The translations under genes and the position numbers were made by a program. Shown one piece after another: positions 16,856-60,898 of a DNA stretch of 64,000 bases (its first letter is position 1; every line of letters starts with the position of its first letter). The stretch spans positions 101,698,221 through 101,762,220 of the forward strand of contig OZ024931.1 in the NCBI GenBank assembly GCA_964017235.1, read 5' to 3'. The notes under the pieces are model-generated. The model did no database searches. It saw only the letters and a list, made by a program, of their open reading frames with translations, and was not told where the DNA came from. The DNA comes from Sabellastarte sp. h YS-2021 (taxonomy: Eukaryota; Annelida; Polychaeta; Sabellida; Sabellidae).

Positions 16856-17757
16856 AGTCGGTTGCTGATTTCCTTATGTACCTTTTTGAGGACAGGAAGT
16901 TACAGCCCAACATCATTGATGGATACAGGTCCGCCATTGCTGATAAACTGGGAAATTTAACCCTCAACATCAGCAAAGATGAAAATCTCACTCGCCTCTT
17001 GGATAGTTTCCATAGAGACAGACCTAACGGTAGAAGGGGTATCCGTTCCTGGAACCAGTCTTTGGTCTTACACCAGCTGACCAAGGCCCCCTTTGAACCA
17101 ATAAAGGAAGCTTCCTTGAAGTATTTGACCTTCAAGACTGTTTTCCTATTAGCCCTGGGTTCAGGCAAACGCAGAAGTGAGATTCATGCCTGGCAACACA
17201 GAAATATCAGGCACCAATCTGACTGGTCAAAGGTGTCTCTGTACCCATCTCCCAGCTTTCTTTCCAAGAACCAGCTGGCCAAGGAGGGTCCAGAGTGTGT
17301 GGCCCCAGTGGTGATACCAGCCCTGGCCCCAACTCTGGATAGATCCCTCAAGTCTGATAGGTCACTCTGTCCAGTCAGAGCCTTGCGTTACTACTTGGAC
17401 AGGACCTCAGACATCAGGCAGAATAAGGAGTTGGTCTTTGTCTCCTTCAAGAAAGGTTTCGACAAGGATATCTCACCTGCCACTATCTCCTCATGGATCA
17501 AGCAGACTGTGATCCTATGCTATGAGCTTTCAGACCAGGAGGCCCACACCTTACATCAGGTCAAAGCCCATGATGTCAGGGCCTTTGCTGCTTCTAAGGC
17601 ATTCCAGTCTGGAATTTCCTTGGAACAGATCTTGTCAGCCTGTCATTGGAAGTCACATAATACCTTCACACAATTTTATCTGAAGGATGTGGCTTGGGCT
17701 GACTCTGAGCTCTATCACCTGGGACCTGTAGTGGCTGCTCAGCAGATCCACAAATAA
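15472..17757 (+). CDS. DIRS-A1 tyrosine recombinase (YR), open
   Basis: The catalytic domain begins around GFSEAVATRIEAPQRG (about 16720) and runs to the stop at 17757. It should recombine the circular DNA intermediate into the genome. Catalytic residues: Arg in GSGKRRSEIHAW (17170-17172), H-x-x-R as HDVR (17569-17580), the HWKSH motif, and the nucleophilic Tyr in TQFYLKDV (17677-17679). All are intact. The frame is open far upstream across RT/RNase H, and no ATG stands just before the domain. In the family the frame runs back to the gag stop, so the given start is only the point where this ORF becomes open in the present copy. The domain itself could still be active. Confidence 0.85.
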   Translation: MSSTYSESGENMSKIGLAGEFGKVRTGSKADLRFCRLPVRPQGRSGPTDPRQVAEPSGQNIRNNVTATLSSSTVHVPDRVANSHRKASSPRLATYVAHTVAPQAALENTRVARKSDSNSQILVPSFAMVATGRQCSHRPTITPNKACSANLYRRIKRRVGHSLKRIHCQRDLVTARKQVAYKLFRTQGSVSCLKRVSKPLCKQDSTCGNRQHYSDVIYKQGRRHEVGHTLCPTRENLDLVYQTSSNSKRPTYPRAAECGSRQAIQTGPDHSNRMVPPSQGFPSYMQQVAPTSDRSICHEVQQQVTSVRVTSTGLLGSSSGCTQSAMGESGRIRLPTSGHLGQSGGEVTGLPLQENHSDCSGVAQHALVLGSSDHVQSDPTEPAQPVGTAFQSDPSQKSDKPKSPCMAPRATAIMDQGFSEAVATRIEAPQRGSTRSVYEAKWAIFTKWCITNQVDFRAPPVKSVADFLMYLFEDRKLQPNIIDGYRSAIADKLGNLTLNISKDENLTRLLDSFHRDRPNGRRGIRSWNQSLVLHQLTKAPFEPIKEASLKYLTFKTVFLLALGSGKRRSEIHAWQHRNIRHQSDWSKVSLYPSPSFLSKNQLAKEGPECVAPVVIPALAPTLDRSLKSDRSLCPVRALRYYLDRTSDIRQNKELVFVSFKKGFDKDISPATISSWIKQTVILCYELSDQEAHTLHQVKAHDVRAFAASKAFQSGISLEQILSACHWKSHNTFTQFYLKDVAWADSELYHLGPVVAAQQIHK

Positions 17758-24787: not shown

Positions 24788-24798
24788 AAAAAAAGGGG
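24788..24798 (+). repeat. L1 target-site duplication, left
   Basis: AAAAAAAGGGG, repeated at 36532-36542 on the far side of the LINE. Because the LINE 3' end is A-rich, the exact edge is uncertain by a few bases. Confidence 0.6.
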
Positions 24799-25647
24799 AC
24801 AAAGCCGAAGAGACAAAGCCAAAAGGCGAGATGTCATAAATTATTTTAAAGATTTAAAACCAAGTATATTGTGTTTACAGGACACTCATTTAACTATTAA
24901 AGAGGAAAACAATCTGAGAATGTCAACAGAGTTTGAATGCATCATTAGTTGGAAATATACAAATTCAAGAGGAGTTGCCATACTTTTTAATAATAATTTC
25001 GAATATAAAATTATCCATAAAGAAATTGATAATGATGGAAATTATGTAATGGTGGACTTGGATGTCTCTTCAGTTTCTCTTAGGTTAATAAATATATATG
25101 CCCCAAACATGGATTCTCCAGGCTTTTTTCAAAGTATACTAAAACTTATTGAAGAAAGCCAACAGGATCATCTCATAGTTTGTGGAGACTTTAATCTGGT
25201 TCTTAACCCAGAACTAGATAGCTTTAATTATGTGAACATCAATAACCCTAGATCAAGGAAATGTGTTCTAGCGATGTTACAACTTCATAATATGAAGGAT
25301 GCCTTTAGGTATCTCCACCCAACCCTGAAAAGATATAGCTGGCGGCGCAAAAATCCGATAAAACAAGCCCGATTGGATTATTTCATTGTGTCGGAATCCT
25401 TGACTGATTTGATTGCAGATTGTAATATTAAGCCTGGATACAGATCAGACCATTCAATATTAGAATTTAATTTATGTGTAAACCCATTTCAGCGTGGGAG
25501 AGGCCTTTGGAAATTAAACTGTAGTTTGTTGAAAAACCCAGAATATTTGAACATGATAAATCACACAATTCAAGATGTATTACTTTCGTATGTAGTTCCA
25601 GTTTATAACATTGAATTCATTACAGAAAGTAATTTTGAAAGACTACA
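24799..25647 (+). pseudogene. L1-like ORF2, part 1: AP endonuclease
   Basis: The frame reads RRDKAKRRDVINYF at the truncated start, then KPSILCLQDTHLT (catalytic Glu of QETH replaced by Asp), RGVAILFN, RLINIYAPN, CGDFNLVLNPELDS, ARLDYFIVS and YRSDHSILEF. These are the motifs of the apurinic/apyrimidinic-like endonuclease of L1-clade LINEs, which nicks target DNA to prime reverse transcription. The DIRS-B insertion ends the frame at 25647. It continues at 31835 in perfect register. Dead through truncation and downstream frameshifts. Confidence 0.88.
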
Positions 25648-25815
25648 TTTTATTACGCTACAATAGCTTACCATGTGGGACTTAATGCTGTTCTCGGGTT
25701 GCCACACCCGGGGCCAACGTCTTAGAAAAAAAGATCGTTCTTGTTAGCCACCGAATATACTAGTAGTTGTCGTCACGTGATAACTTCTGACCAATCGCCC
25801 TACTTTCTCGTTGGC
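25648..25815 (+). repeat. DIRS-B left ITR
   Basis: Inverted complement of 31642-31834 from GCTTACCATGTGGGACTTAA inward. Includes TCACGTGA at 25773-25780. Confidence 0.9.
25773..25780. promoter_or_regulatory. E-box palindrome TCACGTGA in DIRS-B ITR
   Basis: A perfect CACGTG E-box, mirrored at 31677-31684. It stands where family A has a CRE and family C an inverted AGGTCA repeat. A promoter role is inference. Confidence 0.45.
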
Positions 25816-26039
25816 CACGATTGACTGGTAGCAGTTTGTAAGTATACAGACATTTTCATTTATTTCTCAGTCTTTACGTATTGTTGGAGGCTAATATTTG
25901 GATATTTCTTTAAATATATTTCATAGATTATCCTGTAAAATTATTAATTTCACAACTTAAGTATTTTCCTTACAATCCGCGTGTTTTGAGTTTTCTCGGT
26001 TCAGGCAATTTCAATTGTACTTCTTTTTATTGCGTTAAA

Positions 26040-28203
26040 ATGTCTCTCCATCAAGCAAACAAAGACAAACCGAGAGCTTAGAAATTCCGCCATTTTTGCT
26101 TCAGTTTTGATAATCATAATTACTGCCCTACCTGTAGGGAGGCTGGCAAGGGAGATGACCCCTGTGTCACTTTTGAAGCACCCTGCCATATTTGCACGTC
26201 TCTCACTGATGAACAATTGCAAAAAATTCAAAACAGGAAGCGGTATTTAAAAAAGCAAAAAGCGGAAACTAGTTCCAAAGATGAACTAGATCTCTTGGGT
26301 GAAGGCGATGGGGACTCTTTTACTGGTTCTAATGCAGACCTTGAGAGTGCTGCCGATAACCTCTTTACCTCACCCCCCCCCCCGTCCTCAACCTCTCGCC
26401 TTCAGTTCTTTATCATTAAAGACCCCAGCCAAAGCTGTTCCACCCACCCCAGGTACTGTTTTGCAAAACAAAATTCAAAGAAATCTAGAGAAATCCCTGG
26501 GTGATTCCTTAAATATACATATCCAGCAGCAAATGGGTTCCTTCCAGGCATCCATATTAGAAGCATTTCAATCACTCCGAGAGGAGTTGGCAGTTAAAAA
26601 GCCTGCCGAGGTTGATCCCTCGCCTCATGCTTCAAAAGCTGGTCCATCCAGCAACACTGCTGCTCATCTGGACCTACCCCCTCCGAGGTCAAGTACTAAT
26701 GCTCAGTCCGAGGCAATGGATGTGGACGTTGGTCCAGCACTCCCTCCTCGACTAGTACTTAACCAAACTACCTCGGATCAGTACGTTGCCCCTTCTGAAG
26801 CTATACCGAAGGATTCCTCGTACTCACACAAAAAACAAAGCCACAGGCAAACAGTAGCACCGAGCTCTGCCTCGGATCAATTGGATGAGGATTCCGACGA
26901 ACCTCGGATCCATCCTAGACCTAAGAAACACTCTGACAAGAGCAAGCATAAATCTAGGTCCAGATATGTGTCATCTTCAGAGGAAGATCACTCCCCTGTT
27001 GCCAGACACAGGTCTTCTAAGCCCTCTAGGGCTCAGCCCTCAGGCGCAGCTTCTGATCAAGACCTCCCACAACATGATCCAGACCCCCCTTATTATAGGG
27101 AAGTAGCCCTGTCTGACATTCCCTCCCAATACTCTGAAGAGGTAGACACCTTCAGGCGCATTCTTTCTCTCCCTGACCCCAGGGACTCTATGCCTAGGTC
27201 TTCAACTTCAGTGTTGGGTCTGGATGACGAAAAAGGCCGTCAAGAGCTCAGACCTAGAGGTCCTTCCTCTATCCTACCACTTAGCTCAGTTATCAAGGAC
27301 GCCTTTGATAAATTTCAACATGATTTCAAAGCTGCCAATTTATCTGAGGGAAAATATGTCAAGCCTCCTCCATCCACTTCTAAGTGGTATAAGGTTGGAC
27401 AGCCCACTTTTCAAGACAAAATCCAGGAGTTGAATACGGACTTTGCCAAGATCTGTATTACTCCTAGACCTCCTGGGGCACCAGTAGCCAAAGTCCCTCT
27501 GCCAGTTCTTAAGGAGCTGGAACATCAGGCTAGACAAAATATTTCAACCCTCAATTTCACCGCTGCCTTTGCCAAAACCTCTTCTTCTTGCAATGCTTCC
27601 TTGGAAAAGTGCCAACATAGCATCAAGTCAACTGTCAAGAAGATAAAGTCTCAGATCCAGAAAGGTGCCAATCCTGAGAAAGCAGCAAAGCGCGGATATG
27701 AGGAAGTGGCTGAGTACTTGGATTTTTGGAACAAGACGGTTCTTGTTCAACATAGAGCTCTTACCTGTCTCAGCAAATCACTAGCCCATATTCTCCAGAG
27801 GGAATTATATTCCATGGCTAATACCGGCTTGCTTAGGCGCGAAGCCGAAATAACTCTATTGCATCCCCAGCTAGGGGAAACGAGACGCCAAGAACTTAGG
27901 AACTCGTCCTTCTGGGACTCCTCCTTGTTCGAGTCTCAACTTGTAAAGGAAGGTGAGGACTTCCTTCTCAAAAAAGGCACCTCAAAAGATTCTCAGGGTT
28001 TTGCACCCTACCAGAATAAGCCCTTTCGTGGCCCCCACAAGAAAAGAGGCTCCTACAGGAAACGCCCCTATGGGGGCAATACCTCTCAAAGCAGTAACCA
28101 ATCCTTTCCCTCGGGAAGAGGAAAATCCAACTTCAGAGGCTCCAGGGGTCGTTTTCGACCCCACAATAGGGGAAGGGGGCGTGGAAACCCCCCTTCTCAA
28201 TGA
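26040..28203 (+). pseudogene. DIRS-B gag-like ORF1, nonsense plus poly-C frameshift
   Basis: ATG 26040. After 13 codons there is TAG at 26079-26081. The frame continues with a degenerate Cys/His domain (FDNHNYCPTCREAGKGDDPC, then CHICTSLTDEQ). A run of 12 C at about 26372-26383 shifts the frame. From there to 28203 it is open: a Pro/Ser-rich and charged middle, a conserved segment with STSKWYKVG, then a basic C-terminus (FRGSRGRFRPHNRGRGRG) ending CAA TGA CTC. The Arg/Gly-rich tail suggests nucleic-acid binding. Only two lesions separate it from a full ORF. Confidence 0.82.
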
Positions 28204-30259
28204 CTCCTCCAAAGCCTCATTCAGTCCACCAGTAGGAAGTCGCCTCCGTTCTTTCAAGAGAGACTGGCTAATAAACAAATGTTCTCAAAACGTGTTAAAC
28301 ATTATCACCAATGGCTACGTTCTGCCATTCCGTTCAAAGCCAAACTTGATCAGATTTCCTCTGATTCTATCAGAGTACAAGGCCCAACAAAAAGACCAAG
28401 CCTTGGCCACTTGTATCCAGTCTCTCTTGTCAAAGAACGCCATCGAAAGGGTGGAAAACGTAAAATCTCTCGGGTTTTACAGTCGCCTGTTCCTAGTACC
28501 CAAGCCTCACCAAAGATGGAGGCCAGTCATAGACTTAAGCAGGCTCAACACTTTTCTACATGTAGAAAAGTTCAAAATGGAAACCCCGGAGTCCATCAGG
28601 ACTTCCCTGGTTCCAGGGGAGTGGGTATCGTCGATAGACCTGTCAGACGCATACCTTCACATTCCCATCCATCCAAACTCAAGGAAATACCTAAGGTTTT
28701 GCTACAAGACCCAGGTGTTCCAGTTCACCTCCCTACCTTTCGGACTGGCCACAGCCCCCCAGGTCTTTACGATGATCGTAAAGGAAGTGAAACTAATGGC
28801 CCTCTCAAGAGGTCTCAGAATTCACCAATACCTGGACGACTGGCTGATCAGGTCCCAGTCTCAGGAGGAATCTCAAAGGGACACACAGGCAGTGGTAGAC
28901 CTAACCCAATCCTTGGGTTGGATAATCAACCAAGAAAAATCAGAACTGAAACCTACTCAGGTGTTTTCGTTCGTGGGCTACGAATACCACCTAGATTCAG
29001 CCCTTGTAAGACCCACTCACGAGAGATGGCTCAAACTTCAGGATTTGATCCTACGACTCAAGTCAAAACGTGTTTTGACTGCAAGATGTTTGATGTCTCT
29101 AATTGGGTTGCTAGCCTCAACGGAGAAAATGGTCCCGGAGGGACGCCTTCACATGAGGCCCTTTCAGTTTCATCTCAAGGAGCACTGGAGATATCCTCAG
29201 TCGCTGGACAACCTCCTTCCTTGGACAGAAGCCATTGTAGCCCACCTAGATTGGTGGCAAAACCCCACAAATGTGATGAAAGGCGCAGACCTTCATCCCA
29301 AGGACCACAGTATCCAACTCTTTACCGACGCCTCAAACGAAGGTTGGGGCGCTCACTTAGATTAAAATTCTACAAAAGGGCTGTGGTCAGAGTGGGAAAA
29401 AAGGCTACACATAAATGTCCTAGAATTGAAGGCGGTCTCCCTGGCCCTTCGAGACTTCAAGGACCAGTGCCAGAATCAAACAGTGTTAGTTGCGACGGAC
29501 AACTCAACAGTGGTAGCCTACATCAAAAAGCAAGGGGGAACTCACTCAGCAGAGATGTGCGCTCTCCTGTGGAAAATCATGACCTGGTGCCATCACTACC
29601 ATATAACATTGAAAGCCAGGCACATTCCAGGGTGTCTGAATGTGATGGCCGACCTCCTATCCAGGTCCAACCAAGTGCAGTCAACAGAATGGTCTCTGCA
29701 CCCTCAGGTGTTCAAGCAAATCTGCCTGAAGTGGTTCACCCCTCATGTAGACTTATTCGCCACTCACCTGAACCACAAACTCCCTCTATATGTGTCTCCT
29801 ATCCCAGACCCAAGGGCCTGGAACATAGATGCTCTGAACATAAACTGGACCAACCTCACGGCCTACGCCTACCCTCCTACGGCTCTCCTTCACAAGGTGA
29901 TCCAAAAGATCAAGCAATGCCATTGCCTGATCATCCTGATAGCCCCAGGCTGGCCAGGGATGCCCTGGTTTTGGGACCTAGTGCAGCTCTCAACAGAGCT
30001 CCCACTACAACTCCCAGTGTCAACGACCCTACTCAAACAGTCCCACAACTATGTGTTCCACAACAATCCACAACAGCTGAACCTCCACGCCTGGTGTCTA
30101 GGAGCGGACAACTCCAAGAACAAGGCTTCTCTGTGGAGGTGGCAGAGAGAATTGCTGCCCCTCAGCGGTCATCAACAAGGACCATCTACAGGTCAAAGTG
30201 GGCCCTATTTGAAAAATGGTGCAGAGAAAATTCGGTGGATTTCTCCACTCCATCTGTGA
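27953..30259 (+). pseudogene. DIRS-B RT / RNase H / Dam-like ORF2, one stop
   Basis: Open from 27953 (a GTG, no obvious ATG; it overlaps gag by 251 bp in the +1 frame) to TAA at 29363-29365, then open again to 30259. RT: LFLVPKPHQRWRPVIDLSRL, SSIDLSDAYLHIPIH, LPFGLATAP and YLDD at 28829-28840. RNase H: LFTDASNEGWGAHLD, then the stop, LELKAV, ATDNSTV and ADLLSR. Dam-like region: DLFATHLNHKLP, YAYPPTALL and GWPGMPWFWDL. A single nonsense codon inside RNase H is the only visible defect. Confidence 0.88.
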
Positions 30260-31058
30260 AACATATCTCAGATTTTTTCATGTACCTGTACCAAGACTTA
30301 AACAGGCGCCCCTCGACCATTGATGGTTACAGGACTGCTATCGTTGACACTTTGGGCCCAACGGCCCAACACATTGCGCACAATGCAGACCTTCATAGGT
30401 TACTCTCCAGTTTTCACAGGGATCGTCCTAAAAGGTAGCCTTGTTCCCTTCTTCTGATTTCATAGCCAAAAACCAACTAGCAAGAGAAGGTTCTCAAAGT
30501 GTGTCACCAGTGACTATCCCTGCTTTGACTACCATTGTAGATAGACAGTTTAAGGAAGACAGGACCCTGTGTCCTGTGCGGGCCCTGAGGTTCTATTTGG
30601 ACCGAACTAAAGACCTGAGAGGGTCTCGTTCTCTCCTTTTCATCGCCTTTAAGAAAGGACATACCTCAGACATCAGACCCGCTACACTCTCCTCATGGTT
30701 GAAACAAACCATTCTACTTTGTTACAAACAAGCAGATCAACAAGCCTTGGACTTGGTCCAAGTCAAAGCGCATGACATCCGGGCCTTCGCGGCCTCTAAG
30801 GCCTTTTACGGTGGAGTATCGGTGGACCAAATCATGCAAGCCTGTCACTGGAAAGCTCACAACACATTCACAAATTTTTACCTAAAAGACCTTACTTGGT
30901 CGGACACCGACAACAATATGTATCTGGGACCCGTGGTGGCGGCACAACAAGTCCTAGATCCTTCCCCTCAGACCAGTTGTCCTCGGAAAGAAAAAAAGGG
31001 GGGGGGGGGGGGCACATCCGCTACAACCAAGTCTTCAGGAGTCTCTCCCAGGATCTAG
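28279..31058 (+). pseudogene. DIRS-B tyrosine recombinase, box I deleted
   Basis: This frame is open from just after the gag TGA (28204) through the RT overlap to 30438. YR domain from QGFSVEVAERIAAPQRSS to LLSSFHRDRPK. About 80 codons are then missing compared with A1 and C, including the first catalytic Arg (the KRRSEIHAW box). It resumes in another frame at 30441 (FIAKNQLAREG) with HDIR, CHWKAH and TNFYLKDL intact and ends at 31058 after an A/G tract. Without the box I Arg it cannot be active. Confidence 0.88.
30991..31012 (+). other. A7G15 purine tract in DIRS-B
   Basis: A run of A followed by about 15 G just after the YR domain, at the same relative place as in family A, although the flanks are unrelated. 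Confidence 0.75.
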
Positions 31059-31335
31059 GTATTCCTTTACCTTCAAGATGTTACGGGTAAGGTCATTTTA
31101 TTTTTTAATTATCAGGTAATTTCTATTAAGGACTTAGTCAGTTGTCGTTAATCTCATATTTCAGGTTAAAAATTTCATGAGATGCCCAACCACTGGGTTG
31201 GTCAGTCACACGTGAAGGTCCACTAGGGACCCTTAGACCTCGAAGTGAGCACCGCTGCACTTCCGTCCTACTACAAAACATCTGGACAGTTTTAGCACTG
31301 TCCCTTTTTACTTAGGTTTTTTGGCTCGTTACAGG

Positions 31336-31354
31336 CCCGATCTTCGGGATCGGG
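31336..31354 (+). other. 3' UTR hairpin of DIRS-B
   Basis: CCCGATC and GATCGGG pair around TTCGG: a 7-bp perfect stem about 320 bp after the A/G tract. Confidence 0.5.
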
Positions 31355-31480
31355 GCTCTGTAAAAGGGACTCAGACTGGCATTTCTGGCACTATTCTGTA
31401 TATATTAATTCAAATCTTAGAAAAAATGACATATCTTCCAGTCTCAGCTGTAATCCCGCCACCGGGCGGTTGAATTCAGC

Positions 31481-31580
31481 ATTAAGTCCCACATGGTAAG
31501 CTATTGTAGCGTAATAAAATTGAAAATTTTAATTACTTAAATGTAGCTTTTATAAGCTACAAGCTTACCATGTGGGACTT
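31481..31580 (+). repeat. DIRS-B ICR
   Basis: ATTAAGTCCCACATGGTAAG, then CTATTGTAGCGTAAT joined through AAAA to TTGAAAATTTTAATTACTT: complements of the two outer termini, head to tail. Confidence 0.92.
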
Positions 31581-31641
31581 AGGAGAGTCCCACCCTGCCT
31601 CCCCGCTGTTTACAGCTGAGGGGTAGGTTTAATAAAAAAAT

Positions 31642-31834
31642 TTCAACGAGAAAGTAGGGCGATTGGTCAGAAGTTATCACGTGACGACAACTACCAGTAT
31701 ATCTGGTGGCTAACAAGAACGATCTTTTTTTCTAAGACGTTGGCCCCGGGTGTGGCAACCCGAGAACAGCATTAAGTCCCATATGGTAAGCTTGTAGCTT
31801 ATAAAAGCTACATTTAAGTAATTAAAATTTTCAA
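31642..31834 (+). repeat. DIRS-B right ITR
   Basis: Inverted copy of the left ITR, ending AATTAAAATTTTCAA, followed directly by L1 coding sequence. Confidence 0.9.
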
Positions 31835-39117: not shown

Positions 39118-41019
39118 ATGTCTTCTCCAGGACAAAGACGAGGTTCCTGCGGTTTGACTTCCACTCCAAGTGTGCACGTTGTCGCGATAAGGGGGTGGCT
39201 GACGACCCTTGCATCCTCAAGAAGGAATGTAATGTCTGTAAGGGGTTTACTCCTGATCAGATTCAGCAGTTATCAACACCCACCTACAGAGAGCGAAGAG
39301 ACAAGAAGGCGACTGCGTCCTCCTCTGCTCCCACTCTCGTGGACCCTGCACACGTGAGTGTGCTGGGTAAGGTAGAGAAGGTCAAGGCTTCACAGCCTCA
39401 GTCAACCCCTACTACTGCCAAGAAGACGAAACGTAGTGAGTCTCCCAAGCCCTCTGCCAGCAAGAAGAAATCTTCCAGTAGCAGACCTTCAGCTGATGAT
39501 CTGAAACAGCTAGATGATAAATGGGCAGAGGTTCTCCCGGCTGGAGGCGATGCTGTTGGCCAAGACTTTCACAGTACCGGTTGAACCGGTTGTGAAACCA
39601 GCCTCAGATGTGACTACCAGCCAGAAGCCATTTTTTGACCCTGGTGCCACCACCAGCAGTCAAACTGCAGTGAATTCCGGTCCCTGCCTTGATCAGGCCA
39701 CCAGGGAAGCAGTAGATGAGATGCAGACAGCCACCCAGCCTCTTGAGGCTCCCGGTGCCGGGACAGCAACCCAGCCTGTTCAGGCCCCCGGTTCAGTCCC
39801 TGATGGTCAGCCCACCGGTGAAGTAGATCTGAGTGCAGCATCTGACAGTGAAGCTGACCAGCTCAGTGTTACCGGTTCCCTGGATGATGAGATCCACCGG
39901 GACCAGTCACCAGACAGGGATGTCACCAGGGATGAGACTGACCAGGAACCTACTGAGGAGGCCAATTATAGAGAAACTATGAGAGGTGTGAGAAGTTTCA
40001 TGAACTGGCACAAGATTCCTGAGTTTGAAACTGTGTCCTCTGCTGCAGATGACAACCCCTTTGCCGGTGCACGTGTACAGCCTACCGGTAAAGTCTCTGT
40101 GAAACTCCCTGTGGACGACTGGTTGTGCAGGAAGATGTCTACTCTCAACCTCACAATCACAGAAGGGTATCCCACCAGGAACACTGACAATACAGGCCTC
40201 CTCAGGGACCAGTTTGTTAAACCTCCCAGACCTTCCAGATGGTATGGGATGCATGCTGAGAAAACCAGTGAGAGTTCAACAGTACGCACCTGGTCACCGG
40301 ACCCTGCCAAACCCAACCATTCCTTCAGCAGGGTTGCACGAAGAAACCTACCTACTGCCCCACCCTCCCGGGCCTTCAGTCAAGATCTTCTCAGGCGTTG
40401 GGAGAGAGCAGCAAGGGAATAGACAATAATGTGCAACCAGGCTGCTGGTTTATCAAGGTGTTTGACTAGGGTTCAAGACTCTATGGCCACTCAGCTTAAA
40501 ACCCTACGTCTGGACAGCAAGGGCAAGTCATCAGAGAAGATGAAACAAGCTGTGAATGAACTGGAGTACTTGACCACTTTCAACCGGTCAATCTCACAAG
40601 CCATGGCCAGAACGATGCAGGACTTATCTGAGGGTGTTTTTATTAACATGGCTAACTTCACTCTGGCTCGCAGAGATAGTTATTTGGACTACCTACATGC
40701 TGGGGTGAAGCAAGATACTGTGAACGCCTTAAGAACGTCTCCGGTACATCTCAACGCACTGTTCCCGGACCGGCTTATTTTCAAGGCTGAAGAGGAAATC
40801 AGTAAGAGTGAGGAGAGGCGTTCGTCTGGTACGTCACACCGACCTCAGAATCGCTTCCACCCTTATGCTGCAAGTGACAAGTCGACTGGCCATCACGACA
40901 GGAAATCGAACCTCCCAGCTTGGAAGCAGATTAAAGACAAGCAACAAGCCAGGAAGGGTCGTGGCAAAGCCTCGACATTCTCCCAGAAGCCGGCTAAGGG
41001 TTTCAAGTCTCATAAATGA
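39118..41019 (+). pseudogene. DIRS-A4 gag-like ORF1, three lesions
   Basis: ATG 39118 (MSSPGQRRGSCG). A 16-bp deletion near 39154 removes HMMAG of the Cys/His domain and shifts the frame. The domain continues FDFHSKCARCRDKG and CNVCKGFTPDQ. Two bases are lost near 39530 in WAERFSRLEA. A TAG at 40420-40422 lies just before ICNQAAG. The rest is open: ANYRETMRGVRSFMNWHKIP, WLCRKMSTLNLTITEGYPTR, and a C-terminus ending CAT AAA TGA CAA. The frame after the TGA is open into the cysteine-rich segment. Confidence 0.85.
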
Positions 41020-41148
41020 CAATCACTGTGTAAATTCTGTGACCGGTCAGAAGAACTCTGTACATGTTACCGGTCAGGGAGACTTGAACCCAGCACCAGT
41101 GGTAGCCGGGAACAGCAAAGTGACTTTAAATTTGAATGTAGACTCTCA

Positions 41149-41325
41149 TGTTGCAAATGCTCATATTGTCACCGGGTTGCCACAAAGGAAAGGCATAAAT
41201 CCCACTTTTTGTCAAATGTACACAGAAATAAAATATGTGAAAAATGTTTCTTGTGTAGGTCACTTGAGTTCTGTAAATATTGTCACCAATGCCCCACATG
41301 CTGTTATAGATCCTCCTGTAGGGGC
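41149..41325 (+). pseudogene. cysteine-rich segment, DIRS-A4
   Basis: In frame with gag beyond its TGA at 41017-41019 and with no other stop between. It reads SCCKCSYCHRVATKER, then KICEKCFLCRSLEFCKYCHQ, then CPTCCYRSSCRG. All cysteines of the second cluster match A1 and A5, although neighbouring residues differ. The frame ends at TAA 41455-41457, just after a one-base insertion that also breaks RT. Likely zinc-binding; function unknown. Confidence 0.55.
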
Positions 41326-48628: not shown

Positions 48629-48830
48629 TTTTATAGCGAAATACCCTTACCATTTCCTAACAGTAGCTATTTGTTGGAGCCATCCAACCCAATGGCCAAC
48701 GCAGAGATGCGATTTTAAGGTTATATAACCACCTTAATAAAGCCATTGGGTTACAGTAGTCCGTCCTCCCGCCAATTAGGTCACCTGACCTCCTTTGTTT
48801 ACCTCATTATTTTTGTTGGCCATCAACAGT
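48629..48830 (+). repeat. DIRS-C left ITR
   Basis: Inverted complement of 54163-54374 from CCATTTCCTAACAGTAGCTA inward to AACAAAGGAGG complement. Confidence 0.9.
48778..48791. promoter_or_regulatory. AGGTCACCTGACCT inverted repeat in DIRS-C ITR
   Basis: Two AGGTCA half-sites inverted with a 2-bp spacer, as bound by some nuclear receptors. Mirror copy at 54189-54202. Role inferred from position only. Confidence 0.4.
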
Positions 48831-48897
48831 AGGACGTGTTTTGGAAGTGGTAAAGTTTCAGGGACTTTTGCTTTTTTATTGAGGTTTATTCTTCAAT

Positions 48898-50554
48898 ATG
48901 GCTAATAATACTGATTCTTCTGACAATAAGGCGAAGAAATCTTCGTCTTGTGGTCATCTTATGCCTGGATGGGACAACCATAGATATTGTTTTAAATGTC
49001 GAGAAACTGGTTAAGGGAGACGATTTATGTGCTTTGAAGAAAGACTGTTTGCTTTGTGCATCTTTCTCTGAGGATCAGAAGCGTAAGCTTAATTCCAAAC
49101 TTTCAAAAGGGAAGAAATCTGTAAAAGAAATTCCTGTTGAAAAACCCAAGATAGACGATTCCATCTTGGATGAAGATGACAATTCGTCTGTCACAAATGT
49201 GGCTCAGTCTTCGACTTCTAACAACCAGGCATTGGCAGCAATTTTATCACAACTGACAACCATATCGAACAGGCTTTCAGCAGTAGAGAAGAGGGATTCC
49301 CCTATGCAAGCAGACATTGTGGAAGCGTCTCCAAGGGGAAGTTCCGATTGCAGAGAAAAGACTATCTCTTCGGAAAACGCTTCCGTCGAGGTCCAGTCGA
49401 AACGTTCAGCGGAGGAAAACCCCTGTAATGACAATCGAGTTTCTGTACCTACAAAAAGGTGCAGAATCGAGATTTCAGATGGGGAATATGATTCATCTCA
49501 AGAGGAAAAACAGCCAGGTCCTTCCTATTCAGACACTTTGTTAACTGTAAAAAAATGGTTAGACATTGACATTACTGACACTGATGCTATCATTGCTCCG
49601 TCTGTGTTCTCCCAAGCTCATAAAATCAAGAAGTCTGCACAGGTTTCACTTGCTTTACCTCCAGCAGAGAACATGGTGAATCTTTGGGATTTCAAGGAGT
49701 ATGAGGCTTCTGGAATCTCCAAAGGTCAAGATAACATGAAGAATAAATCTTCCAGGAAAAATCCTCTAGCCAGGGGTCAATTTTTGAACTTTGACAGGCC
49801 CAATATGAAATGGTACAACATGACTCCTCAACCTCATGCTTTGGGAGCTCCTAAACTACAGGATGCCTTTAGGAATATAACTTCCTCTCAGTTTCAGGCT
49901 CCCACTACAGTCTCAACTCCCTTGAAGCAATATACTTTATGGGAATCAGTGAACAGGGAAAATATTAACGTGTTGAATCATATTTTCTGGTTCAACTCTG
50001 CAAATATGAAGTCTACTGAGGAAATGGAGAAACAATTCAGTATTATTAAATCTGCACAGTCTGAGGGTGATTTCAATAATGCCATGGAATATGTCCAGGA
50101 GTGTTTGCAGCTCCAAGCCACTATAAATCAGTCATTGGGGAAGTCTTTGGAGTCTTTGTTAGGGAGTTCCATAACTATGTCCTCCAATTTATTGCTAAAT
50201 AGGAGAGATAACTACCTCAAACATTGCTCAAAGGATGTTACAGAGGATGATATTTCCAAGTTGAGGAATTCTTCATTCACACCTAATGAGGTTTTTCCAG
50301 TAGAAACTTTGTCAGAAGTCCAGAGGAATTTTATTCAGTGGGCTCATGTTAACAGAGAGTCTTACAAACCTAGAAAGGAGCACTCTACTAGACATGAGGA
50401 TAGGAGGGACACTAAGCCACAGAACAGGTCTTTTCGTCCCTATCATGACAGTTCTGCCACCAGCTCCTCAGCAGCTAGTTCCACAACTAGTAACAGAGGT
50501 AGAGGATCCTTCTCATCCAGACCCTTCAGGGGCAGGGGTGGGAGAAGGAAATGA
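48898..50554 (+). pseudogene. DIRS-C gag-like ORF1, single-base frameshift
   Basis: ATG 48898 (MANNTDSSDNKAKKSSSCGH). Cys/His domain: CGH, H-x2-C-x2-C (NHRYCFKC), then, after an extra T at 49011-49012 that would cause a stop, LCALKKDCLLCASFSEDQK. Open from there to 50554. The middle is Ser/Lys/Glu-rich; conserved RPNMKWYNM; a helical segment around 50040-50250; and a basic C-terminus (GRGSFSSRPFRGRGGRRK) ending AAA TGA CTG. Apart from one base the protein is whole, so the shift may be recent or an assembly error. Confidence 0.88.
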
Positions 50555-52601
50555 CTGCTTGGTGCCAGGAGGCCGTTTATCCACATTTTGGCAGGTATGG
50601 GAAGCCAGGAGGGCACATCCAAGGGTAGTGACCATTTTGAAGGAGGGTTATTGTCTAAATTTCAGGCTAAAACCTCCATTGACAAAGATTCCTTTAATAA
50701 GGAGCAAATATTTGAACCGGGAGAAACAGCAGTTTTTGATAAAGGCGGTTTATCAAATGATCGACAAAAGAGCGATAACTCCAGTTCAAAAGGTCACTTC
50801 CCTGGGATTTTACAGTCGTTTGTTTCTTGTACCAAAACCAGGAAAAAGGTGGCGTCCAGTAATAGATTTAAGTGTGGTAAACAGTTATTTACATGTACCC
50901 ACTTTCAAAATGGAAACTGCAGAAAATATTCGAGATTCGCTGCAAGAAGGCGAGTGGGTAACCTCACTCGACCTTACAGATGCATACTTTCACATACCAA
51001 TACACCCACGGTTTCAGAAGTATCTTCGCTTCAATGTAGGCGACAGATCATACCAATTCACAGCCTTACCCTTCGGAATCGCTACGGCTCCACTCGAGTT
51101 CACCATGGTAGCAAAAGAGGTGAAACTGATGGCTCTTGCAGAAGGCATCAGGATTCATCAGTACATAGACGATTGGTTAATGAGAGCGAAAACAAAGCAA
51201 CAATGCCAAGAGAATACCCACAGGTTGATTCGTCTTGTTCAAAGCTTGGGTTGGATAATAAATTTCGAAAAATCAGATTTAATTCCAACTCAGGAAATCA
51301 AGTTTTTGGATTACAAATTCGACCTCAGGGTGGGTCTTGTGTTTCCAACTCAAAAGAAAATCGATCGCCTTCTAGAAAAGATAGTTTCCATGTTGAAAGC
51401 TACTCAAACATCTCCAAGGGAGCTCATGTCACTGATTGGGAGCATGGCTTCAATGGAGAAGACTGTACCATTGGGTCGTCTGCATATGAGGCCTCTACAA
51501 TGGTACCTCAAGACACACTGGAGGTATCCTCAGTCTCTGGATATCCCAGTACCAGTGTCTCAGGTTCTAAAACAGCATCTTCAGTGGTGGACCAATCTCT
51601 CGAACCTGATGAGGGGTTCCCCACTTCATCAGAAGGAGTGCAGTCTCCTTCTATTCACAGATGCTTCCCTAAAAGGCTGGGGGGCTCATTTAGAGCATCA
51701 CACAGCCAGTGGTCTGTGGAATCAGGTGGAGTCAAGACTTCACATAAACATTCTAGAGCTAAAAGCAGTATTTCTAGCTTTAAAATCATTCGAAAATCAG
51801 CTTCTGAATCAAAATCTGCTGATTTCCACAGACAACTCTTCAGTGGTTGCCTATCTGAACAAACAGGGAGGCACCCACTCTCAAGAAATGTGTGCCTTAA
51901 TCTGGAGAATCATGGCTTGGACAAATGCCAGGGGGATCCAGATTCGGGCAAAACACATTCCAGGGAATCTCAATGTCTTGGCAGATTCTCTGTCAAGAAA
52001 AGACAAGGTGATTCAGACCGAATGGGCTTTGAATCATCGAGTGTTCAATCAAATTTGCCATTGCTGGCATCAACCAATGGTAGATTTGTTTGCAACAAAG
52101 TTGAATCACAAGCTACCAATGTATGTGTCTCCTGTCCCCGACGGTCGGGCTTGGGAAACAGATGCATTGAACATCTCTTGGGAGGGTCTGGACGCCTATG
52201 TGTTTTGTCCAGTGGCTCTCATACCGCAGGTGATTCAAAAGATGACCACCTACAGGTGCAAGATAATCATGATTGCCCCAGGGTGGCCAGGGATGTCTTG
52301 GTTTTGGGATCTGGTGGATCTGTCCACGAAACTCCCTCTAAGGCTTCCTTTGTGGGTGAATCTGTTGACTCAACCGTTCAGCAACAGACTTCACAGCAAT
52401 CTGGCTTATTTGAACCTTCATGCTTGGCATCTGGAGTCAGTCCTGAAGGTTCAAGAGGATTCTCAGAGGAGGTGGCGAAGCGAATTAAGGAGCCTCAGCG
52501 ACACTCCTCGAGGAGAATCTATGAATCAAGGTGGTCCATATTTGGGAAGTGGTGTCAGGAGAATCAGGTGGACATCTCAGATCCCACTATTCCAAACATA
52601 G
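50346..52601 (+). CDS. DIRS-C RT / RNase H / Dam-like ORF2, intact
   Basis: ATG 50346, 751 codons, overlapping gag by 209 bp in the +1 frame. RT from GGRLSTFWQVWEARR: LFLVPKPGKRWRPVIDLSVV, TSLDLTDAYFHIPIH, LPFGIATAP and catalytic YIDD at 51162-51173. RNase H: LLFTDASLKGWGAHLE, ILELKAVFLAL, STDNSSVV and ADSLSR (D-E-D-D complete). The C-terminal Dam-like region has DLFATKLNHKLP, VFCPVAL and GWPGMSWFWDLVDLST; the FCP motif replaces the usual NPPY, so methylation is unproven. No stop or shift. It overlaps the gag/YR frame for 2 kb. Confidence 0.92.
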   Translation: MLTESLTNLERSTLLDMRIGGTLSHRTGLFVPIMTVLPPAPQQLVPQLVTEVEDPSHPDPSGAGVGEGNDCLVPGGRLSTFWQVWEARRAHPRVVTILKEGYCLNFRLKPPLTKIPLIRSKYLNREKQQFLIKAVYQMIDKRAITPVQKVTSLGFYSRLFLVPKPGKRWRPVIDLSVVNSYLHVPTFKMETAENIRDSLQEGEWVTSLDLTDAYFHIPIHPRFQKYLRFNVGDRSYQFTALPFGIATAPLEFTMVAKEVKLMALAEGIRIHQYIDDWLMRAKTKQQCQENTHRLIRLVQSLGWIINFEKSDLIPTQEIKFLDYKFDLRVGLVFPTQKKIDRLLEKIVSMLKATQTSPRELMSLIGSMASMEKTVPLGRLHMRPLQWYLKTHWRYPQSLDIPVPVSQVLKQHLQWWTNLSNLMRGSPLHQKECSLLLFTDASLKGWGAHLEHHTASGLWNQVESRLHINILELKAVFLALKSFENQLLNQNLLISTDNSSVVAYLNKQGGTHSQEMCALIWRIMAWTNARGIQIRAKHIPGNLNVLADSLSRKDKVIQTEWALNHRVFNQICHCWHQPMVDLFATKLNHKLPMYVSPVPDGRAWETDALNISWEGLDAYVFCPVALIPQVIQKMTTYRCKIIMIAPGWPGMSWFWDLVDLSTKLPLRLPLWVNLLTQPFSNRLHSNLAYLNLHAWHLESVLKVQEDSQRRWRSELRSLSDTPRGESMNQGGPYLGSGVRRIRWTSQIPLFQT

Positions 52602-53503
52602 CAAACTTCCTTAATTATTTGTTTAAGGAGAAGGCTCTCAAGCCATCGACTATTGCTGGTTACAGGACAGCAATTGCTGATGGATTGGGTTTGAAAGGTG
52701 AAGATGTGTCAAAAAGTCTTGAGTTGAATAGGTTATTGTCAAGTTTTTACAGAGACAAACCAGTGGTTAATAGATCCATACCTTCTTGGGATTTGGCCTT
52801 GGTTTTGCAGGCTCTTACTAAACGACCCTTTGAACCTTTGGGGAAGGCTTCATTGAAGTTGCTTACCTTCAAGACAGTTTTCCTTTTGACTTTGGCATCA
52901 GGCAAAAGAAGAGGTGAAATTCATGCTTGGACTTTCTCTTCTCTTAGTTACAAAGAAAATTGGTCACAAGTAACTATTGCTCCATCAACTGCCTTTTTGG
53001 CAAAGAACCAGTTGGCGTCAGATGGGCCTACTGTCATTAAACCTGTAGTCATTCCAGCTCTCAAACCTCATTTGGACAGCAGTTTGACTCAAGATAGATC
53101 TCTTTGTCCTGTGAGGGCCTTGAAATACTATTTGGACAGAACAAAGGATTTAAGGAAGAATAAGAATCTTAATCTTTTGTTTGTAGCTATTAAGGAGGGT
53201 TTTACCAGAGATATTTCAAGGGCAACAATCTCTTCTTGGCTAAAACAGACTATACTTTTGGCTTATGAGGAGTCGGATTCTGAAACGCAGCAGTTGTGTC
53301 AGGTCAAAGCTCATGATGTTCGTTCTATGGCGGCTTCTTTGGCTTTTAAAGGAGGAGTTTCCTTAAGTGAGATTCTTGAAGCATGCTTTTGGAAGTCCCA
53401 CAATACGTTTACCAATTTCTACCTTAAGGACCTCTGTTGGCATAATGGTCAGATCTTGAAATTGGGTCCAATAGTATCTGCTCAGCATGTTATAAACTTA
53501 TGA
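50555..53503 (+). CDS. DIRS-C tyrosine recombinase frame, intact
   Basis: Open directly after the gag TGA (50552-50554) in the same frame as gag, through the RT/RNase H overlap, to 53503. The YR domain starts around GFSEEVAKRIKEPQRHSSRR (about 52460). Catalytic set: Arg in ASGKRRGEIHAW (52907-52909), HDVR (53312-53323), FWKSH, and Tyr in TNFYLKDL (53420-53422). About 655 codons precede the domain, and the only independent ATG early on (50597) has nothing to recommend it. Gag-UGA-YR readthrough, or a spliced or separate mRNA, could express it. An active integrase is likely. Confidence 0.88.
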   Translation: MLGARRPFIHILAGMGSQEGTSKGSDHFEGGLLSKFQAKTSIDKDSFNKEQIFEPGETAVFDKGGLSNDRQKSDNSSSKGHFPGILQSFVSCTKTRKKVASSNRFKCGKQLFTCTHFQNGNCRKYSRFAARRRVGNLTRPYRCILSHTNTPTVSEVSSLQCRRQIIPIHSLTLRNRYGSTRVHHGSKRGETDGSCRRHQDSSVHRRLVNESENKATMPREYPQVDSSCSKLGLDNKFRKIRFNSNSGNQVFGLQIRPQGGSCVSNSKENRSPSRKDSFHVESYSNISKGAHVTDWEHGFNGEDCTIGSSAYEASTMVPQDTLEVSSVSGYPSTSVSGSKTASSVVDQSLEPDEGFPTSSEGVQSPSIHRCFPKRLGGSFRASHSQWSVESGGVKTSHKHSRAKSSISSFKIIRKSASESKSADFHRQLFSGCLSEQTGRHPLSRNVCLNLENHGLDKCQGDPDSGKTHSRESQCLGRFSVKKRQGDSDRMGFESSSVQSNLPLLASTNGRFVCNKVESQATNVCVSCPRRSGLGNRCIEHLLGGSGRLCVLSSGSHTAGDSKDDHLQVQDNHDCPRVARDVLVLGSGGSVHETPSKASFVGESVDSTVQQQTSQQSGLFEPSCLASGVSPEGSRGFSEEVAKRIKEPQRHSSRRIYESRWSIFGKWCQENQVDISDPTIPNIANFLNYLFKEKALKPSTIAGYRTAIADGLGLKGEDVSKSLELNRLLSSFYRDKPVVNRSIPSWDLALVLQALTKRPFEPLGKASLKLLTFKTVFLLTLASGKRRGEIHAWTFSSLSYKENWSQVTIAPSTAFLAKNQLASDGPTVIKPVVIPALKPHLDSSLTQDRSLCPVRALKYYLDRTKDLRKNKNLNLLFVAIKEGFTRDISRATISSWLKQTILLAYEESDSETQQLCQVKAHDVRSMAASLAFKGGVSLSEILEACFWKSHNTFTNFYLKDLCWHNGQILKLGPIVSAQHVINL

Positions 53504-54024
53504 GTAGGTTTTTATAACTGTATAATACTTTATGTGTTTGAATATGTGAATAGTTGATACTTTGGGTTGGATACAATTATTAACCAATCTGCTTGTATTT
53601 TACTTTGTGATGGGTACAATTATTTATTAATCTGTCTGTATTTTACAGGATAGACGGCGTCGACCTGTATATATTGTACAGTTTGCGTAGCTTGGACCGT
53701 ACTTGGTGTTTATGACGCGTCAGCTGATAGTGGTACCAAGTGGGGTTCGACCTGATGTTAGTTCAGTTTGTAAAGTAGATGTTGTTCAACAAGTGCATTT
53801 AGTGGATTCAGAGCATTGTGAGAGTGTTCAACTGCATACTGCCTTCATTTAAAAGGTATGTTGTTGTGTTGAATGTTGTATGTTGGATTGTATGTGTTGC
53901 TGTTTGCATGTACATTTCACTATTGTCATGTTTACTGTTGGTTCTCACAATGTTGCTTGTTGTTGTTGGTAGGTGGAAGTTTTAATAAAAGAATTCCCTC
54001 CTTCCTGCAAGGCTGCATTCAGCT

Positions 54025-54117
54025 ACTGTTAGGAAATGGTAAGGGTATTTCGCTATAAAATTGGAAAATTTAATAGTAATTTAAATTTTTATTAGAAATA
54101 CTTACCATTTCCTAACA
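54025..54117 (+). repeat. DIRS-C ICR
   Basis: CTGTTAGGAAATGGTAAGGG, TATTTCGCTAT joined through AAAA to TTGGAAAATTTAATAG onward to TTACCATTTCCTAACA: complements of both termini. Confidence 0.93.
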
Positions 54118-54162
54118 CATGGATTTCCCTCCCGCCTCCCCGCAAGTCATTCTTTTACCTGC

Positions 54163-54374
54163 AACAAAAATAATGAGGTAAACAAAGGAGGTCAGGTGAC
54201 CTAATTGGCGGGAGGACGGACTACTGTAACCCAATGGCTTTATTAAGGTGGTTATATAACCTTAAAATCGCATCTCTGCGTTGGCCATTGGGTTGGATGG
54301 CTCCAACAAATAGCTACTGTTAGGAAATGGTAAGTATTTCTAATAAAAATTTAAATTACTATTAAATTTTCCAA
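54163..54374 (+). repeat. DIRS-C right ITR
   Basis: Inverted copy of 48629-48830, ending ATTAAATTTTCCAA. Intron sequence ATTTGTC follows. Confidence 0.9.
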
Positions 54375-57500: not shown

Positions 57501-58096
57501 ACCCTCCTTCAAGGTCAAATGAGGATAGCGAAAATTGAAAGTGCCTACAACTCGCTTATTATTGGTGACAGAGATTTGGGATGGTAAACCATCCCATAGG
57601 AAATCATTGGCTCGGAATCTTTGGTATGGTCAGATTTGACCTTTGGACCCCTCCTTCAAGGTCAAATGAGGACAGCCAAGCTTAAAAGTGCTTATAACTC
57701 ATTTATAATTGGTCCTAGAGGTTTGGAATGGTAAACCATAGGAAATCATGGGCTGGGAATGTATTTGTGTGGTTAGATTTGACCTTGGACCCCTTCTTCA
57801 AGGTCGAACGAGGATATTGCATTTGTAGTATTTCTTTAAATATGTTTTAACCTATTTTTTACACTTAAACAATTACCTTGTTATTTTCCTTCATAATACC
57901 ATTTACAGGGCACAATTTTTTTTCCTTTTCTACTGTCAGCTTCGGAATTTCTTTCGAACTTGCTGTTCAGTTACCATTTACTGTATTTCTGTACAGCCCT
58001 TTTCCTGATAATTATTCTGTCCTCTAATCACCTTCACAAATCAAAAACACTCAGTCAGCTGACACAGTGCCCGTTCACAGGCACTCTCCTCTTGTT
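54593..58096 (+). mobile_element. HINE copy C, complete (3.5 kb)
   Basis: 5' ATGTCAGCTGACTTGTCAG, leader, about 12 units of the 155-bp satellite (55170-57050) without the 930-bp order, about four 146-bp units (57230-57830), and the tail with hairpin GTGCCCGTTCACAGGCAC at 58067-58084 (one mismatch), ending CTTGTT at 58096. Half the size of copy A. Confidence 0.8.
55170..57050. repeat. 155-bp satellite core of HINE copy C
   Basis: Same unit as 4560-9990. At about 55970-56110 the leader-type segment (GTGTTGCATTTAGAGCATT to CTTCCATCATGAGTAAAATC) recurs inside the array, so part of the leader has been re-duplicated. Confidence 0.88.
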
Positions 58097-58927: not shown

Positions 58928-60898
58928 ATGGCGTCTCCTGGTCAAACATGGGGACTGTGTGGCCATTTGATGGCTGGTTTTGATAAACTTTCAGTTTGTG
59001 CTAGATGTAGAGACAAGAAGAAGGGTTCTGATCCCTGTGTTAAAGACAAGGTTTGTCCTCATTGTGATATACTCACGGAAGAGCAAAAGCTTCGACTGGC
59101 CACATCAGTTTATCAGAAGGAGAAGCGAGAATTAAAGACCCAGACAGAAGAGTTGAGTGGCACCCAAGTCCCTTGTCTCTGTTATAGGGTAGCGAAAGAC
59201 ATTGGGGTTAAAAGCTCAGAAGAGGTGAGTACCACCCCTGCGGGTGCGAAAACCAAGAAGATGGATAAGAGCTTGGAAGCGGTGAGTAGCACCCCTGAGG
59301 GTGCGAAAGCCAAAAAGACACAGAAAACCCCAGACATCACAGTGGCCAAGGAAAAGAGCAAGAAATGGCACTCTTCACCGGCTAGATCTTCCAAAAGGAC
59401 CACTGATAGTAAGCTGGAAGCCATGGATCTTACGTGGTCAGAGCAATTCAGCAGATTAGAAGCTATGCCTCTCTCCAAGTCCTTCAGTCAACCTGAACCA
59501 TTATTCCAGCCGGTTAAGATCACTCCAGTGAAGCCCCCACCAGCTGGTGCTGTGGATAATACAGAACCCTTCTTTGCACCGACCAGATCTACCGACCAAC
59601 CAACCTCTTCTCAGCAACAGGCTTCAGACCGACCTCAGCCAGTGGACTGACCATTATCTACCAACCAGCCCTCCACCGATCCAGTGACTAAACCCTCAGA
59701 CCTACCTACCCTCAGATTCGGATATGGACACTGACTCTGTTACAGATACCGAATCTCTGCCACGTGTTATGGGCCACACTAAAGAGGATGAGCTCTCTGA
59801 TATTGAACAGGACATATTTCTCACTGATGCTGACCAGGCCTTGTCTGAGAAACAGAATTACAGAGAGACTGTGCGTGGAATAAGATCCTACATGGGTTGG
59901 TCACATATTCCAGATGTGGATTCTGATCTCTCGAGTTCTGAAGACAACCCTTTTGCAACACCCAAGCAACAATCGACTGGCAAGATCAGTGTGAACTTAC
60001 CAACAGACGGTTGGTTGTGTCGCAAGATGGATAGACTTAATTTGACTTTGGTTCAAGGGTACCCATCAAGAAGTTCTGAAGCTGGAGGCCTCCAGAAAGA
60101 TCAGTTTATATAGCCGGCCAAATCACAAGTGAAATGGTATGGACTCCATCCCAGTCAAGACAAACCGGCCAGATCTGTGTCCTGGCATTCTGAGGCTGCA
60201 AAGCTTAACAGTACTTACAGCAGGGTTGCCAGATCGTCTGGCCTCACTTCACCGGCCCCAGCATCGCGTACCATCTCACAGGACATGCTCAGAAGGTGGG
60301 AAAAGAGTGCCAGGGAAGCTACATACATTTGTAATCAGGCTGCCGGTCTAGGTCGTTGTTTAAACAATCTCAGTTAAAGATCGTGCAATCAGAACACAGC
60401 AAGGGCAAGTCAGCAGACAAGGTCAGTGGAGCCACAGAAAAGCTACAGTACTTGATGATTTTCAAATCTTCTATTATATAATGCATGGCCAAAACAATGG
60501 AACATTTGTCAGACTTTGCTTTTGTCAGTATGTTCAACTTCACTCTTGCTCGTTGAGATTTTTATTTGGCTCACATGAAATCTGGAATTAAGCAGGACAC
60601 TCTGGCTTCCTTATGTCAGGCTCCAATGGACTTACCCACCTTATTTCCAGACAGCATACTGAAGAAAGCAGAAGACGACATCTCCAAGTTTGAGGATAAG
60701 GGATATTCTCATGCAAGCATTTCAGGTTGCAAGGATTCACGTTATGATCCATACAAGAGGGCGGACCAGTCATCTTATGAGTCCAAGTCTGGTAAACCAG
60801 TCTGGAAAAATATTGGTCGGGCACATAAAAAGAAAGGCAGGATCCAGACAGGAAAGTTTTCATCACGTCAGGCCAAGGGTCAGTCTGCTTATAAATGG
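58928..60898 (+). pseudogene. DIRS-A5 gag-like ORF1, decayed
   Basis: ATG 58928 (MASPGQTWGLCGHLMAGFDK); Cys/His domain complete (CGH, CARC, PC, CPHC). An internal repeat EVSSTPEGAKAKK-like occurs two or three times at 59220-59330. TGA at 59648-59650, a shift before 59724, TAG at 60111-60113, another shift near 60371 and TGA near 60554. The C-terminus ends AAA TGG CAA: the family gag stop TGA has become TGG, so gag here runs straight into the cysteine-rich segment. Confidence 0.85.

Follow-up and report, generated by a model that had tools for sequence, protein, structure and literature searches.

The window analysed here (the whole 64,000-nucleotide (nt) stretch of contig OZ024931.1 from the annelid Sabellastarte sp. 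h YS-2021, positions 101,698,221 to 101,762,220) holds several DIRS elements set among satellite arrays, and our subject is the way in which these elements may express their tyrosine recombinase (YR). In the element DIRS-C (Table 1), gag ends at a single UGA followed by C, and beyond this stop the gag frame, hereafter the zero frame, continues without another stop through the reverse transcriptase (RT)/RNase H gene, which overlaps it, and into YR. A first-pass annotation, made from the letters of the window, had described this layout in three families and suggested that YR is made as a Gag-YR readthrough protein. Its description stands up well to measurement: frame 2 of DIRS-C is open from 48854 to 53503 and frame 1 of DIRS-B from 26290 to 30438, each save for one TGA; the stop contexts AAA-TGA-CTG (C), CAA-TGA-CTC (B) and AAA-TGA-CAA (in the older copies A1, at 14561, and A4, at 41017) had been read correctly; in A4 (frame 1) and A5 (frame 2) gag and the following zero frame share one phase, YR being reached via frame changes; and RT/RNase H is +1 to gag. 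The gag-YR layout is moreover far more general than that annotation stated.

The gene assignments rest on motifs and domain matches. RT and RNase H lie in a single frame of DIRS-C (Pfam RT_RNaseH, E 3.6e-6, beside the RVT_1 match of Table 1). The catalytic part of the DIRS-C YR, 3' of the RT overlap, carries the motifs RRGE, HDVR and W..HNTF..FY, whose R, HxxR and Y we take to be the catalytic residues; its match to Cre is weak and non-significant (E 0.05), and the A1 zero frame matches Phage_integrase at 6.4e-5, under the curated score cut-off. A Pfam search of the C and B RT frames (E 0.01) found no methyltransferase family. Inverted terminal repeats (ITRs) also bound A4 (174 nt, 98%) and A1 (175 nt, 95%), and internal complementary regions are present, the 3' end having short reverse-complement matches to both termini (61 and 40 nt in C). 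To compare DIRS-C with its relatives, 20 further genomic copies were aligned with the window copy, giving 21. A 1-nt length difference close to the gag start is private to the window copy, none of the 19 other copies covering the spot having it, and the gag ATG of the window copy is for this reason out of phase with the rest of gag. From that ATG, 7 of the 21 copies are fully covered with the UGA as the lone stop before the YR end; the remaining 14 have extra stops, indels or phase differences, or incomplete coverage. The window copy also has 6 nt in the YR region (53165-53176) that the aligned copies lack, as far as they cover the place (18 of 20, with no coverage in two).

Table 1. Features of the DIRS elements in the window (positions are those of the window).
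Feature	Position	Strand	Remarks
DIRS-C element	48646..54334	+	ITRs 48646-48818 and 54162-54334, 173 nt, 100%
gag of DIRS-C	48898..50551	+	ATG 48898 to UGA; shared variants mostly synonymous
UGA then C, DIRS-C	50552..50554	+	TGA-C in 21/21 C copies; preceding codon AAA or AAG
DIRS-C zero frame after UGA	50555..52354	+	stop-free, little conserved as protein; overlaps RT (+1)
DIRS-C tyrosine recombinase (YR)	52355..53500	+	gag frame; conserved N-terminal part overlaps RT to 52598
DIRS-C RT/RNase H open frame	50304..52598	+	frame 3, +1 to gag; RVT_1 E 4e-21
DIRS-B element	25665..31792	+	ITR arms 149 nt, 97%
UGA of DIRS-B	28201..28203	+	CAA-UGA-CUC
DIRS-B zero frame after UGA	28204..30435	+	stops inside YR; YR resumes 30432-31055 in another frame
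UGA of DIRS-A1	14561..14563	+	AAA-UGA-CAAUUA
DIRS-A1 zero-frame (YR) part	15193..17754	+	854 residues; 40% identity to DIRS-C over 829 positions
UGA of DIRS-A4	41017..41019	+	AAA-UGA-CAAUCA
Cys-rich module of DIRS-A4	41020..41313	+	gag/YR frame, 98 codons, from UGA to RT-frame PPVG motif
DIRS-A5 (old copy), equivalent site	60896..60898	+	TGG then CAATCA

The genome was searched with four protein queries (B, C and the A-type loci L050 and L012), each of which starts in gag, treats the UGA as a residue and continues in the zero frame. Per query the best 142 rows of 19,551 to 32,786 first-look candidates were scored; as the ranking was by similarity, these are well-preserved copies (lowest identities 95% for B, 72% for C, 65% for L050 and 83% for L012). 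The search tables show that a TGA is present but not where it lies or which base follows, and a TGA in a row was taken as the junction. The single UGA in zero phase, whose retention the first-pass annotation proposed to test on many aligned copies, is what nearly all rows of these family-level searches show within this genome: 565 of the 566 rows covering the junction carry TGA and 510 have exactly one stop, 566 being a plain sum in which rows may be shared between queries. TGA is found in 142/142 best rows for B (133 with it as sole stop), for C (119 single-stop; groups at about 91-100%, 78-84% and 72-76% identity) and for L012 (133 with only that stop), while for L050 two of the 142 rows fall short of the UGA, 139 of the 140 covering rows have TGA and 125 exactly one TGA. 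Open frames of about 1,537-1,831 residues span the stop in many rows. When the stop codon was left free in an A-type pattern, 98 of the 100 listed sites (1,701 matches overall) read TGA, one TAA and one TGC; when stop and next base were both free, every one of the 100 B-type sites listed (208 overall) had one identical string with TGAC, and the 20 further DIRS-C copies likewise all have TGA-C.

A degenerate RT motif based on these elements matches 16,412 sites genome-wide, and its reversed control 2. At ten of the loci so found (L041-L050) a junction was recognisable in four, by a filter that itself demanded TGA-C; five of the six others, with 7 to 26 stops in the zero frame, seem to be decayed. 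A pattern search for relatives in viral contigs gave five matches, none of them confirmed. Subgroups of rows in the protein searches have identical scores together with full-length open frames, suggesting recent activity.

The zero frame is under selection to remain open. When the synonymous codons of the RT frame were shuffled (5000 permutations per family), 38.6, 24.5 and 21.5 zero-frame stops were expected in the overlaps of C, B and A1, and none is present in their 681, 684 and 538 codons; no permutation was stop-free in any of the three families, and the +2 frame shows no stop depletion in the same test. The first 100 codons past the UGA alone hold 0 stops versus 5.7 (C) and 5.2 (B) expected. 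It might be argued that RT codon usage or recent common ancestry has left the frame open, with no relation to YR expression, since the copies of a family hardly differ and their stops are conserved by descent. This we regard as very improbable: the permutations largely contradict it in families with only 52-55% identity in the RT frames and 33-37% at fourfold sites (for B and C, 55% over 674 aligned codons, with fourfold sites, at 35%, near saturation).

The same codons hardly behave as a protein-coding sequence. The first-pass annotation had proposed, as a test, a ratio of nonsynonymous to synonymous substitution rates (dN/dS) below 1 between gag and YR; the codons there are open yet, weak excesses apart, not conserved as protein until the YR domain. 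Against 200 shuffles that preserved the open zero frame, with the +2 frame as control, zero-frame similarity is strong only from codon 600 on, where the YR domain starts (z 7.3, 6.3 and 6.4 for the three pairs; +2 control 2.9, 2.8 and 1.6); in the other windows z is -0.7 to 3.0 and the control -1.0 to 2.7. This open-frame null rejects amino-acid constraint across the whole linker; a first, simpler null (z 10.1) was discarded as it allowed stops. Single-nucleotide polymorphisms (SNPs) shared by at least 2 copies of DIRS-C show a constrained RT frame in the overlap (ratio 0.22) and no zero-frame nonsense change versus 0.9 expected; singletons show constraint in neither frame (1.04, 1.18) and one zero-frame nonsense change versus 4.7 expected. 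Upstream, gag-frame constraint extends to the UGA (A-type ratio 0.45, 97 variants; shared C variants, four synonymous to one nonsynonymous), the A-type SNP test having been confined to the part upstream of the UGA in 12 loci that were picked by similarity after it. With stops depleted and the protein little conserved, most of the overlap must therefore stay open and hardly needs to encode a particular protein, so that a dN/dS below 1 is the wrong signature for a gag-YR linker.

An open, unconstrained linker is what the passage of ribosomes from upstream requires, and what a start or splice site near YR would not. Two other routes to YR have to be weighed on this point. In the first, YR would come from a spliced mRNA whose 5' exon is followed by zero-frame sequence from beyond the UGA; splicing would supply a start codon and remove the UGA, but it would call neither for a phase shared with gag nor for a lone stop, and an acceptor near YR would not need some 600 open codons. 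In the second, YR would start at an internal ATG by reinitiation or an internal ribosome entry site. Zero-frame ATGs do lie 14 codons (DIRS-C) and 25 codons (DIRS-B) past the UGA, but 35 ATG triplets, gag's own counted, stand between the gag ATG and the UGA of DIRS-C, and such a start gives no reason for keeping about 600 little-conserved codons open. In B and C, where these early ATGs exist, the argument that YR has no start of its own rests on the open linker and, in C, on the 35 triplets.

The A-type elements bear on both routes. Directly past their UGA the zero frame encodes a Cys-rich module conserved between diverged groups: four of them (A4, L050/L046, L049 and L012) share 13-17 aligned Cys per pair, and similarity between groups reaches z 10.6-17.0 in the zero frame versus 6.6-18.9 in the +1 frame, the zero frame being higher in 5 of 6 pairs. 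The module has no match in Pfam, and its Zn-ribbon matches in the PDB are non-significant (E 0.13-0.16). The first zero-frame ATG comes only at codon 110 (A4), 186 (L050), 187 (L046, which has one extra stop), 123 (L049) or 182 (L012), although the stretch is conserved, and internal initiation is accordingly hard to fit to these elements; overall we judge it unlikely. The earlier claim that YR lacks an AUG of its own is best borne out in the A-type, with its 110-187 codons before any ATG; DIRS-C does have an early zero-frame ATG. As for splicing, the shared residues begin at codon 1 past the UGA (Q-x-L) and no AG occurs before codon 4, which argues against an acceptor just past the UGA; an A-type acceptor would have to sit upstream and would leave the UGA in the message. 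This point is weakened if the first codons are kept as readthrough context rather than as protein; even so, splicing seems to us improbable. The Cys-rich module was not seen in B and C.

The letters around the stop are of a kind associated with leakiness, as the first-pass annotation had supposed: UGA-C is found at the A1, A4, B and C junctions and in the copies whose letters were seen, the full CARYYA motif being confined to the A-type. All 18 A-type junctions found by homology have CAAUCA or CAAUUA after the stop, an exact CARYYA, and 17 of them have TGA; the 18 comprise the 12 loci mentioned above (A4 included, and chosen by similarity in this very region), A1, A5, and L046, L049, L050 and L012, the last four recognised with a filter demanding TGA-C. 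According to passages of PMC4132726, an OPRL1 reporter with CARYYA showed readthrough of about 15%, with similar values for UGA and UAG, and a C directly following the stop is important. On the 5' side, a stable fold is predicted just upstream of the DIRS-B UGA (28104-28203, z -2.8); a 5' stem as a common signal was rejected, the value being unmatched in C (-1.3) and A4 (-0.6).

We propose that in these DIRS elements gag ends at a programmed leaky stop and that Gag-YR is made by readthrough. This is the best-supported mechanism, to which, judging from sequence comparisons, we would give a probability of about 0.73; it builds on what is directly seen, namely (i) the layout, (ii) its conservation in one genome, (iii) the selection on frame openness and (iv) the conserved A-type zero-frame stretch without ATG. 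Several points weigh on the other side. All sequence comes from a single genome of 1.79 Gb. The identity of the stop, taken as proof of readthrough, is weakened by a control: the RT terminator TAG (52599) is kept in 150/150 rows of the C-type families, and because it is equally invariant, an invariant stop within related families is not diagnostic of readthrough; what follows the two stops in DIRS-C is nevertheless different, 982 open codons after the UGA versus 30 after the RT stop. One covering A-type row of the L050 search has no stop, the junction of the old copy A5 has TGG, and L041, which lacks a UGA-C junction and has just two zero-frame stops upstream (TGA-T and TAA, at a distance of about 1 kb), is a possible exception or a decayed copy. 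In the overlap of DIRS-C, shared SNPs give no sign that the zero-frame amino acids are constrained (ratio 1.24, 20 variants), and DIRS-C has its early zero-frame ATG. Conservation of the Cys-rich module is not unique to the zero frame, since the groups also resemble one another in the +1 frame, as would be expected if both frames are read, yet a caution. The contexts of B and C, UGA-CUC and UGA-CUG, fall short of CUAG and are weaker; RNA structure in the 100 nt past the UGA does not exceed that of shuffled sequences in the three elements tested (z 1.0, 0.6 and -1.5 for C, B and A4); and the gag-UGA-pol junction of the Candida albicans retrotransposon Tca2 gave no readthrough in yeast, according to PMC2194720.

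Under readthrough, most ribosomes would terminate at the UGA-C and release Gag, while a minority would insert an amino acid at the UGA, remain in frame and cross the roughly 600 codons that overlap RT. These ribosomes would end in the tyrosine recombinase, yielding a Gag-YR fusion of about 1,540-1,800 residues which, we infer, as we do for the occurrence and rate of readthrough itself, would be the working recombinase. For the RT/RNase H of B and C, whose conserved start has no ATG, the simplest entry would be a +1 shift at or near the same UGA, a weaker part of the proposal; the missing RT start codon had gone unremarked in the first-pass annotation. The first RT-frame ATG past the UGA is at codon 68 in C and codon 125 in B, and the RT-frame alignment of the two begins 5-11 codons past the UGA. 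Up to the first RT-frame ATG of C, 23 of 65 RT-frame residues are identical, about 10 standard deviations (SD) above shuffled sequences; the zero frame there shows 9 identities, about 3.6 SD above its own shuffles. No +1-frame stop interrupts the stretch between the UGA and the RT motif in 6/6 A-type copies (about 6.6 stops expected over five; the families being related, no exact probability is claimed). Upstream of the UGA no RT-frame constraint was seen, either in SNPs (A-type ratio 1.70; shared C variants five nonsynonymous and no synonymous, from 5 variants) or in pairwise comparison (z not exceeding 1.7 in nine of the ten pairs, the tenth giving 3.1 where the +2 frame gives 2.7). In B and C, RT-frame conservation thus begins just past the UGA, ahead of any RT-frame ATG and with no constraint seen upstream; RT therefore seems likely to be entered from gag by a +1 shift, probably at or very near the UGA.

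The shift could instead lie elsewhere in the last 80-95 codons of gag, or RT/RNase H could use another start altogether, and we hold this to be a serious possibility, though not the likelier reading. The +1 frame is indeed open for 67-100 codons upstream of the UGA in 12/12 A-type loci and for 83-85 codons in C and B; as evidence for a shift window, however, this openness is uninformative, with only 0.0-1.7 stops expected there, and the lack of RT-frame constraint seen upstream and the start of the B/C alignment both speak against this alternative.

Joining a shift at the UGA to readthrough gives a tentative picture, to which we would grant somewhat less than an even chance: AA-UGA-C would be a three-way junction at which termination gives Gag, readthrough Gag-recombinase and a +1 shift Gag-RT, one weak stop setting the ratio. 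In this three-way scheme RT and YR would overlap over such a length because both exits begin at the same point. If true, expression by way of a leaky gag stop would give a specific answer to how the overlapping genes of DIRS are expressed, which the DIRS passages cited below leave unexplained, and to why pol and YR overlap so far; readthrough would here join gag to a recombinase, where gag-pol is the usual fusion. These elements would also offer natural families with two leaky contexts (CARYYA and UGA-CUN) for studies of termination.

The surroundings of the elements are repetitive. Arrays of a 155-bp satellite occupy 4640-10069, 11628-12080, 18458-18955 and 55171-57053, and close to them lie 146/147-bp arrays at 10071-10885, 19295-20466 and 57244-57816; DIRS-A1 (12095-18414) sits between two of the 155-bp arrays. 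The RT region of DIRS-A4 contains a 275-bp tandem duplication (99%, 42488-43037).

Readthrough between gag and pol is classical, and antizyme is known for a +1 frameshift site at a UGA; to our knowledge, no system pairs a +1 shift at a UGA with a productive in-frame extension. The DIRS passages of five papers (PMC3266345, PMC9210276, PMC5633606, PMC3783388, PMC6681497) describe three open reading frames (ORFs) with a long pol/YR overlap, place the catalytic part of YR in the non-overlapping 3' end and make no mention of gag-YR readthrough; the words "stop codon" have 0 occurrences in the main texts of PMC3266345 and PMC9210276. Titles and abstract beginnings among the matches listed in a literature search included no paper on gag-YR readthrough, though the papers of Goodwin and Poulter, or later reviews, may mention it. 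Compared with DIRS1-like elements, those studied here resemble Anolis AcDIRS1, which also starts with CTT, but differ in that the passages on DIRS1-like elements give three ORFs with no shared gag/YR frame (PMC3266345, PMC9210276), and in that the methyltransferase domain of many members was not found here by Pfam; in Xenopus, according to the passage concerned, only part of the DIRS families (38) have that domain (PMC9210276).

Outside DIRS, murine leukaemia virus is alike in having an enzyme in the gag frame behind one leaky stop, whereas that stop is a UAG, its product is pol and it has a stimulatory pseudoknot, where the DIRS elements have UGA-C, a recombinase and no structure that we found (passages of PMC5009743). 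Tca2 is a retrotransposon with the same order of gag, UGA and enzyme frame, and differs in being a long terminal repeat (LTR) element with pol downstream (PMC2194720). As to the stop itself, the A-type UGA-CAAUYA matches exactly the CARYYA sites described in PMC4132726, and B and C have UGA-CU in common with its UGA-CUAG sites, without the A(G) of CUAG. Finally, in antizyme and bacterial RF2 the +1 frame is entered at a UGA, as we infer for RT/RNase H here, and for RF2 passages of PMC5009743 stress a conserved C after the UGA.

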